Assembly (NCBI GenBank): GCA_016193065.1 | Contig: JACPSX010000258.1 | Span: 1-6,124, forward strand | DNA from: Candidatus Tectimicrobiota bacterium | GTDB lineage: Bacteria; JACPSX01 | DNA: 6,124 nucleotides | Reading direction: 5' to 3' | Part shown: positions 1 through 6,042 of the stretch, piece by piece | Layout of the letters: each line of letters opens with the position of its first letter | How positions within the stretch are numbered: position 1 is the first letter of the stretch | The notes under the pieces: generated by a model | Seen by the model: only the letters and a program-made list of their open reading frames with translations | Told to the model about the DNA's origin: nothing | Database searches by the model: none | Program-made: the position numbers and the translations under genes

Positions 1-201
1 CGCCCGCTTCCAGGCATCTTCCCGGTAAGTCCCCTTGAAGGTGGCGGAAGGGTCGGGCTCGGGACGCAGGGCAAAAGGTTTCCACTGGATCTCAAAAGCA
101 TCTCCGGATTTTTCCCTGAGCCTGGCCAGCCGCACCGCGGTGGGGTAGCACCAGGGTCAGAGGTAGTCGGAGATTTCAAGCACCGTGATTTTTTCGCTCA
201 T
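1..201 (-). CDS. FrnE/DsbA-like thioredoxin-fold oxidoreductase, probable selenoprotein (U-P-W-C active site), 3' end outside window
   Basis: Not a conventional ORF, because codon 15 is TGA (159-157). The 67 codons in the window read MSEKITVLEISDYL-U-PWCYPTAVRL, then a stretch containing FEIQWKPFALRPEPDP (residues 36-51). This is the N-terminus of the FrnE/2-hydroxychromene-2-carboxylate isomerase branch of DsbA-like proteins: a beta strand ending in S-D, a C-P-W-C-Y active site, an amphipathic helix, then the W-x-P-F-x-L-x-P strand. The TGA replaces exactly the first, nucleophilic cysteine; the resolving Cys18 is kept. With Sec inserted, the protein would be a thiol/disulfide oxidoreductase, usually cytosolic in this branch; no signal peptide is visible. 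Start ATG 201 has GGAGGGGGA at 219-211, nine bases upstream. An in-frame ATG at 237 would add 12 residues but is less family-like. It lies 42 bases after the HEPN gene and may share its transcript. The alternative is a pseudogene or a Cys-to-stop base error, made less likely by the position and the hairpin that follows. Confidence 0.85.
121..155 (-). promoter_or_regulatory. Candidate bacterial SECIS hairpin just downstream of the UGA
   Basis: Read on the minus strand, the RNA after UGA (159-157) can fold into one long imperfect hairpin. Five lower pairs join CCUGG (155-151) to CCAGG (125-121). After a two-base UG bulge come three pairs (148-146 with 128-126, one G-U) and a C/C mismatch. Two G-C pairs (144-143 with 131-130) and a bulged C at 132 follow, then three pairs (142-140 with 135-133) closing the loop CGCG (139-136). 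The loop has a G at its second base and begins 17 bases after the UGA, within the range I recall for bacterial SECIS elements. I folded it by hand; no energy was computed. In GC-rich coding DNA some hairpins occur by chance. Confidence 0.6.
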
Positions 202-210
202 GGGAATCTG

Positions 211-220
211 TCCCCCTCCA
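211..220 (-). promoter_or_regulatory. Ribosome binding site of the selenoprotein gene
   Basis: TGGAGGGGGA on the minus strand leaves nine bases before ATG 201. It is strong and decides in favour of that start over the in-frame ATG at 237, which has only GAGG four bases upstream. Confidence 0.65.
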
Positions 221-1528: not shown

Positions 1529-2056
1529 ATGGAAGCGTATCTGGCGATCGTGAGCAAGCGCGAGGTCCGGGACTATTTGCCGGATCCGATTCGCGAGGAG
1601 GAAATGAATCAGATCCTGGAGGCCGGCCGGGCGAGTGGCAGCAGCCGGAACCGGCAGCACTGGCGCTTCATCCTGATGCGCGATCGCAAGCGCCTGCGTG
1701 AGTTGAGCGTTCTGGTGACCCGTCCGGCAAATCTGACGGGGTGTGCGGCCGCGATTGTGGTTGTTCTCACGAATCCGCGCGCCCAGTTTGACGCCGGGCG
1801 GGCCGCGCAGAACATGATGCTGGCCGCCTGGAGCCTCGGGATCGGGTCTTGTCCCAACACGCCGGCCGATGAACCCGGACTGAAAACAGCGCTCCGTGTG
1901 CCAGGGGAGGCGGGCATTCCCACGATCATTTCTCTGGGATATCCAGCCCCGGGTGCTCCGCGCCCCCGACCCCGCGCCAAGCCCGAGGAAGTGCTTGCCC
2001 GCATTGACCGCCTGCCGCTCAAGGACCTGGTGTACAGGGAGGTCTACGGGGGCTAG
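1529..2056 (+). CDS. Nitroreductase-family FMN protein
   Basis: 175 residues, at the short end for the family. Order of motifs: the opening helix with K10-R11-x-V-R14-x-Y16, which in relatives contacts the FMN phosphate; SGSSRNRQHWRF (36-47), the counterpart of the usual S-x-x-N-x-Q-P-W; D88-AGRAAQNMMLAAWSLGIGSC (88-108), the conserved dimer-interface helix; and IISLGYP (133-139) near the flavin. Members reduce nitroaromatics, quinones, enones or iodotyrosines, oxidise thiazoline/oxazoline rings, or remodel flavin, using NAD(P)H. The exact reaction is unknown here. The protein is cytosolic, with no signal peptide. It is first in the operon, 86 bases before the ligase gene, with a palindromic repeat in the gap. 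The C-terminal lid after about residue 140 is short and rich in Pro and Arg. Confidence 0.88.
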   Translation: MEAYLAIVSKREVRDYLPDPIREEEMNQILEAGRASGSSRNRQHWRFILMRDRKRLRELSVLVTRPANLTGCAAAIVVVLTNPRAQFDAGRAAQNMMLAAWSLGIGSCPNTPADEPGLKTALRVPGEAGIPTIISLGYPAPGAPRPRPRAKPEEVLARIDRLPLKDLVYREVYGG

Positions 2057-2087
2057 CGGGGGACCTCGCGAAGGCGGCCCCTCACCC

Positions 2088-2118
2088 TCCCCTCTCCCCC
2101 TCGCAGGGGGAGAGGGGA
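2088..2118. repeat. Palindromic intergenic repeat (REP-like), 14-bp stem
   Basis: A perfect inverted repeat with arms at 2088-2101 and 2105-2118 and a three-base loop CGC lies between the nitroreductase and ligase genes. The stem is C/T-rich on one side and G/A-rich on the other, preceded by CCCCTCACCC. It resembles the CCCTCACCC...GGGAGAGGGG intergenic palindromes scattered in many GC-rich genomes. No T-tract follows directly on either strand, so it is not a standard intrinsic terminator. In RNA it would form a very stable hairpin that could stabilise the upstream message or dampen transcription into the ligase gene. Confidence 0.7.
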
Positions 2119-2142
2119 AAAGCGAGAGTAGAGTTTTTCGAA

Positions 2143-3753
2143 ATGTCCGAGGACCCGCAAAAACTCGCGCGGGAGATATCGCGCACCATGCCGCTTATGA
2201 CGGCGGCAGACTTCTGTGATCGCCATGCCCGGGAAATCGGTCACCAGGAGGCTCTAGTGGATCGCTGGCGCCGCCTGAGCTGGTCTCAAGTCAAAGATCT
2301 CTCGGACCGGCTTGCCCTGCGTCTTCTTGCTCTGGGACTTCAGCGGGACGACCGGGTTCTGGTGCAGCTCCCCAACGGAGCGGAACTCTTTCTCGCCCGC
2401 CTGGCCTGCGAGAAGGCGGGGCTTCGCCTGCTTACCGTGACTCCTACATTCCGCCGGGCCGAGCTTGCTCCCATCGTTCAGTTTACGAAACCCGCGGCTG
2501 CTATCATTCCCCGGGAATATCGTGGGTTCAACCATCACGAACTTCTGGAGAGCATTCGCACGCCGGAGCTCAAGCATCTTCTGGTGGCGGGAGAGTATGT
2601 TCCTCCCGGGACTCTGTCTATGGAAGAGATTTTCTCCGCGCCGACGGAGAAGAATGGTGGCGTGGAGAGGCTCCAGAAGACCCGCTATACGGTCCTCGCT
2701 GTCTGCCAGGCGGCGACGACCAGCGGCTCCACGGGAACTCCCAAGTGCGTCGAGGTTCCCCTGTACACCCGCCTCCTCACCGGTTGTATTCATTTGAGAC
2801 GCTTTCGGCTGAATTCAGGGGACACGCTGGCCGCCGTGACCTCCATCGTGAGCGGCTCCGCGGATGCTTTAGCCTACAATGGGGGCTGCCAGTCCGGCGC
2901 GCGCGTCGTCCTCCTGGATCATTTCACTCCGGAGGAAACCTGCGCTGTCCTGGAAAGGGAGCGGGTCAACGCGATTCCGCTCGTGCCCACGATGATGGCC
3001 CGTCTTATGGCCATTCCGAATCTTTCCCGCTACGATCTCCGGTCCCTGCGGGTTGTTGTGAGTCACGGCTCCATCCTCCCTTACGCCCTGGGAGCAGAGT
3101 TCGAAGAACGCATGGGGTGCCGCATCACCCAGGGGTACGGGAGCGTCGATTGCGGGGGCATCTGCGCGAACTCCTGGGACGATCCACCGGAGGTTCGCCT
3201 CGGGACCGTGGGGCGCCCTCTGGACGGGAACGAGGTCAGGATCGTGGACGAAGAGGGGAGAGATGTTTCCCCCGGGGAAGTGGGACGGTTGCTCGTGCAC
3301 GGTCCCCACGCGGATGCTCACTTTTTCAACAATCCCGATCTCAACGCCCGCAGCCGCCGCGAGGGTTACTTCGACCTGCAAGAGCTGGGCCGGCTGGACG
3401 GGATGGGGAATGTGATTCTGATGGGCCGGGAGAAGGACCTGATCATCCGCGGCGGGCAGAACATTTTCCCGTCCGACGTGGAGGGGTTGTTGACCCAACA
3501 CCCGAAGGCTCTGGAGGTGTCCGTCGTCGGCATCCCGGATGAGGAAATGGGGGAACGGGTCTGTGCGGTAGTCGTGTGCCGTGAGGGCCAATCTCTTAGC
3601 CTCGCCGAGGTGAGATCCTTTCTAGAGGAAAAGGGAGCGGCCCGCTTTAAATGGCCGGAACGGATCGTACTCGTCGATTCCCTGCCCAAGGTGGCGGCGG
3701 GCCACAAGATCGACAAGAAAAAACTAAAAGAAGATCTGAGGAGGACCGTATGA
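2143..3753 (+). CDS. Aryl-acid-type adenylate-forming ligase (AMP ligase or CoA ligase)
   Basis: 536 residues, full length for class I adenylate-forming enzymes, which activate a carboxylate with ATP to an acyl-AMP. Resemblance to DhbE/EntE runs from the N-terminus: VLVQLPNGAELF (72-83), then AAAIIPREYRGF (118-129) and HLLVAGE (145-151). Motifs: A3 TSGSTGTPK (193-201), A5 QGYGSVD (330-336), A8 GREKDLIIRGGQN (428-440), and A10 LPKVAAGHKIDKK (514-526), whose K522 is the likely catalytic lysine. Deviations: the A7 Thr-Gly-Asp is Leu-Gln-Glu (412-414), A10 has an extra residue between Gly and Lys, and the position matching the substrate-binding Asn235 of DhbE seems to be Ser237. So 2,3-dihydroxybenzoate is unlikely. 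No carrier protein is in the window, so CoA may be the acceptor. The start at 2143 has only a weak Shine-Dalgarno site; Met16 or Met19 are alternatives. It ends in an ATGA overlap. Confidence 0.88.
   Translation: MSEDPQKLAREISRTMPLMTAADFCDRHAREIGHQEALVDRWRRLSWSQVKDLSDRLALRLLALGLQRDDRVLVQLPNGAELFLARLACEKAGLRLLTVTPTFRRAELAPIVQFTKPAAAIIPREYRGFNHHELLESIRTPELKHLLVAGEYVPPGTLSMEEIFSAPTEKNGGVERLQKTRYTVLAVCQAATTSGSTGTPKCVEVPLYTRLLTGCIHLRRFRLNSGDTLAAVTSIVSGSADALAYNGGCQSGARVVLLDHFTPEETCAVLERERVNAIPLVPTMMARLMAIPNLSRYDLRSLRVVVSHGSILPYALGAEFEERMGCRITQGYGSVDCGGICANSWDDPPEVRLGTVGRPLDGNEVRIVDEEGRDVSPGEVGRLLVHGPHADAHFFNNPDLNARSRREGYFDLQELGRLDGMGNVILMGREKDLIIRGGQNIFPSDVEGLLTQHPKALEVSVVGIPDEEMGERVCAVVVCREGQSLSLAEVRSFLEEKGAARFKWPERIVLVDSLPKVAAGHKIDKKKLKEDLRRTV
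3738..3745 (+). promoter_or_regulatory. Ribosome binding site at the ligase/cyclodeaminase ATGA junction
   Basis: GAGGAGGA lies four bases before ATG 3750, which overlaps the ligase stop (ATGA, 3750-3753). It fixes the start of the downstream gene and implies translational coupling. Confidence 0.75.
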
Positions 3754-4844
3754 CCCTGCTTCTCAGCAATGAGGACGTGGAAAAAGTTTTGACGATGGAG
3801 GTGTGCCTGGAAGCCCTGGAGACCTTGTACCGTGAGGTTGGAGAGGAGAGAGCGGTAGCCACCCCTAGAATGGATGTGCACTTACCAACCCCTCGATCTG
3901 AAGGAACCGAGGTGCCCATGGCCCATTACCTCAAGACCATGAGCGGTGGCACTCCTTCCTTTGGTGTGGCGGCTCTGAGGCTCACTTCGGACATTGTGGC
4001 CTGGAAGAAAGTCGGAGATCTGATCCGGCGCGAGAAAATTCCTGCCTTGCCCGGCAACCGCTGGCTGGGGCTCGTGCTCCTGTTCAGTTCGGCCAACGGG
4101 GAACTGCTGGCGATCATGAACGATGGGGTCTTGCAGAGAATGCGGGTCGGAGGGACAAACGGTTTGGGGATCAAGTACCTCGCCCGGCGGGATTGCCGCA
4201 GCGCCGGTCTTTTCGGGTCGGGCTGGCAGGCGGGCTCTCAGCTCATGGCCCTGTGCGCCGTCCGCTCCGTGACAACGATCAAGGTGTACAGCCCGACCCG
4301 GGAGCATCGGCAGGCCTTTGCCCAGGAGATGAGCGGCAAGCTCCGGGTGAAAGTGATCCCCGTGGATAGTCCCGAAGAGGCGGCTCGAAATGTGGACCTC
4401 ATCGTTACCGCCACGAACAGCCGACAGCCGTTTCTGAAAGGTCTCTGGCTCAAGCCGGGGATGCATCTAAGCTGCATGCAGCGCGACGAGGCGGAAGACG
4501 ATGCCTACGGGAAGAGCGACGTCCTGGTCATCCACACTCACGCGATGGAACACAACTTCGTCTCCAGAGATCTGGTGGAGCGCCACGGCCGGGACGGCTT
4601 CGAAGTCCGGGATCACCCGATTCCGCGCCGGATCGATTGGAGCCGGCTGCCGACCCTGGGGGACCTGGCGGCAGGCCGCATTCAAGGGCGCACCTCGGAC
4701 GAGCAGATCACGTGCTTCGTGAACAACATCGGCCTGGGGGCCCAGTTCGCCGCCGTCGGAGCCCGGGTGTATGAGCGAGCCCGCGCGCAGGGGCTGGGCC
4801 GGGAGCTGCCCATCGACTGGTTTGTGGAGTCCGTCCACCCTTGA
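3750..4844 (+). CDS. Ornithine cyclodeaminase/mu-crystallin family NAD(P)-dependent protein
   Basis: 364 residues, slightly longer than ordinary ornithine cyclodeaminases. The substrate half shows PRMDVH (39-44), FGVAALRLTSD (71-81), PGNRWLGLVLLFSSANGELLAI (101-122) and RMRVGGTNGLGIKYLAR (130-146). The Rossmann fold starts with LFGSGWQAGSQ (154-164), the dinucleotide-binding loop, and VTATNSRQP lies further on. The family includes cyclodeaminases, alanine dehydrogenase, ketimine reductases and SbnB-type amino acid synthases. The lysine that binds the substrate carboxylate in ornithine cyclodeaminase seems to be Arg77, and the usual G-D-x-P-G-K catalytic segment is replaced by SCMQRDEAEDD. A classical ornithine cyclodeaminase is therefore unlikely; imine or keto-acid reduction, or another amine-linked reaction, fits better. 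The gene is coupled to the ligase and ends 22 bases before the transporter. Confidence 0.85.
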   Translation: MTLLLSNEDVEKVLTMEVCLEALETLYREVGEERAVATPRMDVHLPTPRSEGTEVPMAHYLKTMSGGTPSFGVAALRLTSDIVAWKKVGDLIRREKIPALPGNRWLGLVLLFSSANGELLAIMNDGVLQRMRVGGTNGLGIKYLARRDCRSAGLFGSGWQAGSQLMALCAVRSVTTIKVYSPTREHRQAFAQEMSGKLRVKVIPVDSPEEAARNVDLIVTATNSRQPFLKGLWLKPGMHLSCMQRDEAEDDAYGKSDVLVIHTHAMEHNFVSRDLVERHGRDGFEVRDHPIPRRIDWSRLPTLGDLAAGRIQGRTSDEQITCFVNNIGLGAQFAAVGARVYERARAQGLGRELPIDWFVESVHP

Positions 4845-4866
4845 GATTCTAAAAAGGGAAGTTCTA

Positions 4867-6042
4867 GTGAAATGGCGCGTTCTGGCTCTGTGCAGTCTGG
4901 CCTTTTCCATCTGCCACGCATACCGTGTCATTCTGTCCGTCCTCCTGCCTGCTCTCAAGGAGGACTTCCAGATGAAGTACGCTTCTCTTTCGGTCCTGGC
5001 TTCGGCCTACGATTTCGGCTATTTCTTGACCCTCGTCCCCGGAGCGTATATGGCGGGGAAGCTGGGCAGAAAGAAAGCGGTCTGGTTCGGAATCTCCCTG
5101 GTTGGTATGAGCAGCCTCCTTTCCGCCGCGACCGGCGGGAGTCCCCTCTGGCTGATGATCTACCGGATGTTGGGGGGGCTGGGTTTCGGCCTTTATTTCC
5201 CCGCGGGTTGGTCCTTGCTGGCATCCTTTTTCCCTCCGGAGGAGCGGGGGCGGGCTTTTGGATTCCACACTTCCGGATCCGCCATCGGGCGCGTCTATGG
5301 CCCTCTTCTGGTCGGAGCTCTCATTGGCGTGGGAAGCTGGAGGTTGCCTTTCTTGAGTTTCGGTCTTTTCGCTTTGGCGGCGGTCTTCTTGCTCATTTGG
5401 GGTTTGCCGGGATTTGATGATACTCAACAGAAAGCCGGGGTTGCTCTTGGTGGAAGTTTTGATTTCTTGTCGGAAAAAATGTTTCTCGTGTTCTGCGGCC
5501 TGAATATTTTGACTTCATTATTTTTTTTCGGCACCGTGAATTTTTTCCCCCTGTTCCTCTCGCGTCAGTTGGGGCTGCCTAACGCGAGCGTTTCCTGGCT
5601 CGTCTCCTTCCTCTCCGTGGTCACCCTTTTCAGCAACCCCCTGGTCGGACACATTTCGGACAAGGCAGGCAGATGTCGTATGATCCCGGCGGCTTACGGC
5701 TTTGGTGGTCTGGCCTTGCTGGCCCTGCCGCTGTTTGGAATCCATGGCCCGATCCTCCTGTACTCGGGACTCCTCGGAATCTCGATTACCGCCAACGTCT
5801 CCATGGTGATCTCATACATGACGGAATTCGACCCCCGATTTGGTCACCCTCTGGCTATCGCCGTTTATAACATGGTGGGGGTGCTCGGCGGCCTGCTGGT
5901 CAATGTTATCCTTGGAGTCGTGGCCGATTCCTTCGGCCTGAACAGCGTCTTTCTCGTGATGGCCCTTCCTCTGTTGGTTGGAAGCGTCGTTGCCGCCCTT
6001 CTCTTGAAGATTCCCCCTCTTTCTCAGCCAGCGATCGAATAA
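4867..6042 (+). CDS. Major facilitator superfamily (MFS) transporter
   Basis: 391 residues with about 12 hydrophobic segments, full length for the MFS. The first helix spans residues 5-30. The loop between helices 2 and 3 carries the family motif as GKLGRKKAVWFG (64-75), and its pseudo-repeat GHISDKAGRCRM (261-272) follows helix 8. EERGRAFGFHTSGSAIGRVYGP marks helices 4-5. It should move a small solute across the inner membrane by H+ symport or antiport; direction and substrate are not readable. I chose GTG 4867 because AAGGGA (4854-4859) sits seven bases upstream and the protein then starts directly at helix 1. The longer in-frame start at 4771 would overlap the cyclodeaminase by 74 bases. 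As last gene of the operon it probably carries the substrate or product of the three enzymes. An eight-T run (5521-5528) lies inside the gene. Confidence 0.9.
   Translation: MKWRVLALCSLAFSICHAYRVILSVLLPALKEDFQMKYASLSVLASAYDFGYFLTLVPGAYMAGKLGRKKAVWFGISLVGMSSLLSAATGGSPLWLMIYRMLGGLGFGLYFPAGWSLLASFFPPEERGRAFGFHTSGSAIGRVYGPLLVGALIGVGSWRLPFLSFGLFALAAVFLLIWGLPGFDDTQQKAGVALGGSFDFLSEKMFLVFCGLNILTSLFFFGTVNFFPLFLSRQLGLPNASVSWLVSFLSVVTLFSNPLVGHISDKAGRCRMIPAAYGFGGLALLALPLFGIHGPILLYSGLLGISITANVSMVISYMTEFDPRFGHPLAIAVYNMVGVLGGLLVNVILGVVADSFGLNSVFLVMALPLLVGSVVAALLLKIPPLSQPAIE

Follow-up and report, generated by a model that had tools for sequence, protein, structure and literature searches.

The minus strand of positions 1–201 of the window, by which we mean the entire 6,124-nt contig analysed here, in all likelihood carries the 5′ part of a gene encoding a cytoplasmic FrnE/DsbA-like oxidoreductase, with a U-P-W-C active site whose selenocysteine (Sec, U) is decoded by SelB and tRNA-Sec by way of an mRNA hairpin. 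Translation from ATG 201 to base 1 gives MSEKITVLEISDYL*PWCYPTAVRLARLREKSGDAFEIQWKPFALRPEPDPSATFKGTYREDAWKRA, and confirms the claim of the preliminary description that the only stop in this frame is the TGA at codon 15 (bases 159–157). This TGA occupies the position of the first Cys of CPWC in FrnE/DsbA proteins (motif U/C-P-W-C), and most likely encodes Sec at the catalytic site. The start codon of relatives corresponds to ATG 201; an alternative in-frame ATG, 36 bases upstream, reads MKNSNSGGGQIP-. The features of the gene are as follows.

1–201, minus strand: 5′ part of a predicted FrnE/DsbA-like selenoprotein gene, 67 codons (translation; PF01323; identity to locus L043)
157–159, minus strand: in-frame TGA, predicted Sec codon, the U of U-P-W-C (TGA at the equivalent codon in relatives)
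148–150, minus strand: TGC, resolving Cys of U-P-W-C (column C19, invariant in alignment A3)
114–156, minus strand: putative bacterial SECIS hairpin whose apical loop, GGU, lies some 20 nt after the TGA (fold; published bSECIS limits; covariation in the clade)
212–219, minus strand: possible ribosome-binding site GGAGGGGG, upstream of ATG 201 at a rather long spacing (sequence)

With the TGA read as Cys, residues 6–48 match the DSBA domain PF01323 (E 3.5e-9; 37.2 bits versus a Pfam cut-off of 25.6), which is the sole PF01323 match in the genome. The same model is matched by all 36 members of alignment A3, and the best PDB match of the family profile is Deinococcus radiodurans FrnE (E 3.6e-20), so that the FrnE/DsbA N-terminus recognised earlier is upheld. 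Base 1 is the edge of the contig, and the frame can be read no further: the 5′ part is covered, the remaining two thirds of the gene lie outside, and a search of the assembly with a full-length relative returned no C-terminal part elsewhere, the sole match being the window. The expectation that the frame stays open to a natural stop holds for full-length relatives (about 190 codons), with the window's own copy cut at base 1. In L043 and the 30 nearest relatives (L101–L130), 187–192 open codons follow the TGA before a natural stop.

A contig scan of genomes yielded 57 loci, the nearest of which is L043 of NC10 bacterium SPGG6; it carries TGA at the equivalent codon and is 63% identical to the window gene in the search, 61% over the shared part of the alignment. 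Across 109 loci including the window, the codon at the nucleophile column is TGC in 51, TGA in 40 and TGT in 18, and no other codon occurs. The TGA at this codon is not there by chance, and its reading as Sec in place of the nucleophilic Cys stands, with TGA or Cys codons at the column and never an unrelated residue or stop. All 30 of the nearest relatives have the TGA, as do L022, L023, L024 and L043; distant relatives mostly have TGC or TGT. Further TGA forms (L022–L024, L026, L027, L032, L040 and L042) were found among 145 relatives across the domain, each from a different family and tied to the window genome at domain level only. In the Methylomirabilota-containing phylum of genome G084, which includes SPGG6 and a genome, G153, 100% identical to L043, 66 of 95 genomes have a match and, by our own count, 63 of these 66 have at least one single-TGA match.

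This recurrence bears on two alternatives. A nonsense mutation could have cut short a former Cys-type DsbA-like gene, and the position of the fragment at a contig edge, as well as the failure to find selA and tRNA-Sec in the MAG, would suit such a pseudogene; yet the same TGA stands in dozens of genomes with never another stop or residue at the column, the 52 codons after it retain the conserved residues of the family in the alignment, and the genome holds many further TGAs at redox-site codons. We consider a pseudogene very improbable. That an error of sequencing or assembly turned TGC or TGT into TGA might be argued from the single MAG contig that is the source, but the identical TGA is present in independent relatives and the tree places the window in the TGA clade, apart from Cys relatives, leaving this explanation a negligible chance. 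Both are disfavoured because the TGA recurs in independent genomes.

In an IQ-TREE tree of 86 proteins, the window falls within a Sec-only clade of 32 rows (support 100/99) that adjoins NC10-type sequences (support 90/82), although its exact place is less sure because it fills 31% of the columns. The Sec/Cys label requires about four changes on the tree versus 28 with shuffled labels. Cys-type homologues from Myxococcota, Binatota, Chloroflexota and Rokubacteria share SDYLxPWCY...VRL and ...LRP... with the window family, but have TGC or TGT in place of TGA, occupy separate branches and lack the coupling between codons +7 and +8 described below. The gene neighbourhood of relatives (TonB, acyl-CoA dehydrogenase, EamA, FtsX, DNA polymerase B and DNA ligase) varies between groups and gives no functional clue.

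Decoding of the UGA as Sec, by SelB with tRNA-Sec, would be directed by a hairpin immediately 3′ of the UGA in the mRNA. Starting at the window TGA, a stretch of 50 nt is predicted to form a hairpin (−22 kcal/mol; z −1.2, not clearly more stable than shuffles) whose GGU loop lies 20 nt past the TGA. It falls within the published bSECIS limits (loop of 3–9 nt, G in the first two loop positions, 16–37 nt from the UGA, MFE ≤ −7.5; PMC13188914), but many synonymous recodings do likewise, and 7 of 30 are at least as stable. Hairpin z-scores differ weakly between the Sec and Cys groups (p 0.077), RNAalifold returned no supported helix, and the region near the TGA shows no significant codon conservation as a whole (p 0.31); codons +6 and +9 by themselves are highly conserved at the synonymous level.

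A sharper signal comes from the third bases of codons +7 and +8, which flank the loop GU. These are pairable in 32 of 32 Sec-clade genes (C-G 13, G-C 12, G-U 6, A-U 1), counts that kinship inflates, as it does equally for the other 195 pairs, and their mutual information ranks first of 196 adjacent codon pairs, a rank taken against all 196 for a pair chosen after viewing the alignment. Among 45 Cys relatives, the same bases are pairable in 33% and show no coupling. Judged from these alignments, the coupling is a SECIS-like RNA constraint at synonymous sites in the Sec clade. The pair resembles one in the published bacterial SECIS consensus, which has a base pair inside the apical loop around the G (PMC13188914). 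In the window, codons +7 and +8 read GCG GTG and are not pairable, making it the one clade member seen without the covarying pair; its hairpin would instead, as inferred from the fold, close the neighbouring GGU loop by a C-G pair, and presumably serves as the SECIS in this copy.

We give about an even chance to a broader proposal, that of a cytoplasmic Sec-DsbA subfamily of FrnE type, very common both in one phylum and in the surroundings of that phylum, with SECIS loop covariation at synonymous codons and, in the window copy, a shifted loop. If true, the shifted loop would amount to a natural experiment on the SECIS loop geometries that SelB can accept. The clade offers a well-populated set for the study of how SECIS loops are constrained and how Sec and Cys replace each other in a cytoplasmic disulfide oxidoreductase.

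The window genome, a MAG of 2.90 Mb in 294 contigs that is 86% complete, contains part of the machinery for Sec. The sel genes that the preliminary description had called for were found in the case of selB (370.6 bits versus a cut-off of 242) and of two divergent selD genes (410 and 382 bits), both of which contain a single in-frame TGA, at a U-x-x-K site (contexts ...GAGUGCK... and ...CAGUAGK...; loci L017, C120, and L018, C175). The second selD, L018, shares its contig with selB. Neither selA nor tRNA-Sec was found in the MAG: searches with the selA family model and a relative's protein gave a sole match of 14.6 bits, which is probably unrelated, no selA remnant was seen by eye upstream of selB on the selB contig, and all the RF01852 matches inspected are tRNA-Ser, -Leu, -Trp, -Gly or neighbours. 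In the phylum of the relatives, selA scores above the cut-off in 83 of 95 genomes, and several relatives with the TGA gene also have no selA match (G153 and G156, for example). Because about 14% of the genome is absent and some TGA-gene relatives likewise have no selA match, the missing selA and tRNA-Sec are not decisive.

Other genes of the MAG also have in-frame TGAs. Among 11 matches to AhpC-TSA (peroxiredoxin), seven have a single TGA that falls on the active-site motif or adjacent to it, in the contexts WUPSC, TUDSC, WUHSC, GUIFC, GUPYC, TUPYC and TGGU (loci L135, C184; L138, C245; L139, C145; L141, C254; L142, C287; L144, C239; L145, C104). With ten candidates from the three families searched, the genome seems rich in selenoproteins. 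Several in-frame TGAs in one genome would also be expected if TGA had been reassigned to a standard amino acid in this organism. However, TGA terminates three genes of the contig (HEPN, AMP-ligase and ornithine-cyclodeaminase-like), and each in-frame TGA that we inspected coincides with the redox motif of its family or adjoins it. As TGA is an ordinary stop on the window contig, the code is not reassigned, an alternative to which we attach next to no probability, and Sec remains the preferred reading. In a relative's genome (G137), the more distant DsbA/thioredoxin-like genes L040 and L042 have TGA at the same active-site Cys (UPFC, UPYC), and, counting L023, this genome has at least three such TGA genes. 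L032 (genome G031) is DsbA-like, with TGA and without a resolving Cys (UPFV), and resembles the 'DsbA 3, UxxV' class (PMC2398784).

For the fold of the full-length protein we used an AlphaFold model of L043 in which C replaces U (pLDDT 92.9). The top Foldseek matches were YjbH and FrnE, followed by DsbA-like SCO1869, kappa GST and HCCA isomerase. YjbH/SpxH (PDB 6ghb, 6gho), at ≤26% identity, is an Spx adaptor in Gram-positive bacteria, a role of which the window family gives no sign. D. radiodurans FrnE (DR_0659; PDB 5cnw, 5cp1) shares its fold with the model (TMq 0.80–0.84) and has a Cys, in a CP(W/F)C site (PMC8945050), where the window family has Sec. Full-length relatives have FrnE as their nearest neighbour in sequence and among their nearest folds, and their N-terminus lies at the first strand. 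FrnE is described as a disulfide oxidoreductase of the cytoplasm, and its mutant shows sensitivity to both cadmium and diamide (PMC8945050); a cytoplasmic location is likewise inferred here because there is no room for a signal peptide ahead of the first strand. By analogy, the window protein may reduce or isomerise disulfides in the cytoplasm, with a selenolate as its nucleophile. This selenolate would attack a substrate disulfide, or be oxidised by one, as in FrnE, and the Cys three residues on would resolve the mixed selenide-sulfide; Sec incorporation itself, the substrate and the direction of the reaction are all predictions. FrnE also has a C-terminal CxxxxC that serves regeneration, although some FrnE proteins are without it (PMC8945050). 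No such motif is present in the alignment of full-length Sec relatives, which end near 205 residues, and regeneration would therefore probably differ from that of FrnE.

Selenoproteins of this kind have a history. DsbA-like UxxC selenoproteins were described in 2005 from the Sargasso Sea (PMC1088965), appear in GOS under the name DsbA 1 (PMC2398784) and are catalogued by a 2026 review (PMC13188914) under 'DsbA-like protein form 1'. The review mentions in addition a MAG of Methylomirabilota for which 63 selenoproteins have been predicted. Compared by description (PMC1088965, PMC2398784, PMC13188914), DsbA-like form 1/DsbA 1 (PF01323, UxxC) has a DSBA domain, Sec for the N-terminal Cys and TGA/Cys pairs, as in the window family; on this likeness, the window gene is a new member of the established predicted family 'DsbA-like, PF01323, UxxC'. 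The preliminary description was thus right that the UxxC class is an established one, and since DsbA-like UxxC proteins have long been known, an unannotated selenoprotein in the window is no sign of a new kind; the range of selenoproteins known to exist is unchanged by it. Ordinary gene calling would truncate the window selenoprotein to 14 residues or miss it, and, as no NCBIfam model matched L043 at its cut-off, annotation pipelines probably miss the Sec-DsbA subfamily.

The rest of the window holds genes on both strands. At 244–1264, on the minus strand, a HEPN-domain protein and a MarR-like HTH/nucleotidyltransferase protein are encoded by overlapping genes, a HEPN/MNT-like pair that ends 42 bases ahead of the start codon of the selenoprotein gene. 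At 1529–6042, on the plus strand, nitroreductase-like, AMP-ligase, ornithine cyclodeaminase/mu-crystallin-like and MFS transporter genes follow in a row, with the AMP-ligase and cyclodeaminase-like genes overlapping at ATGA.
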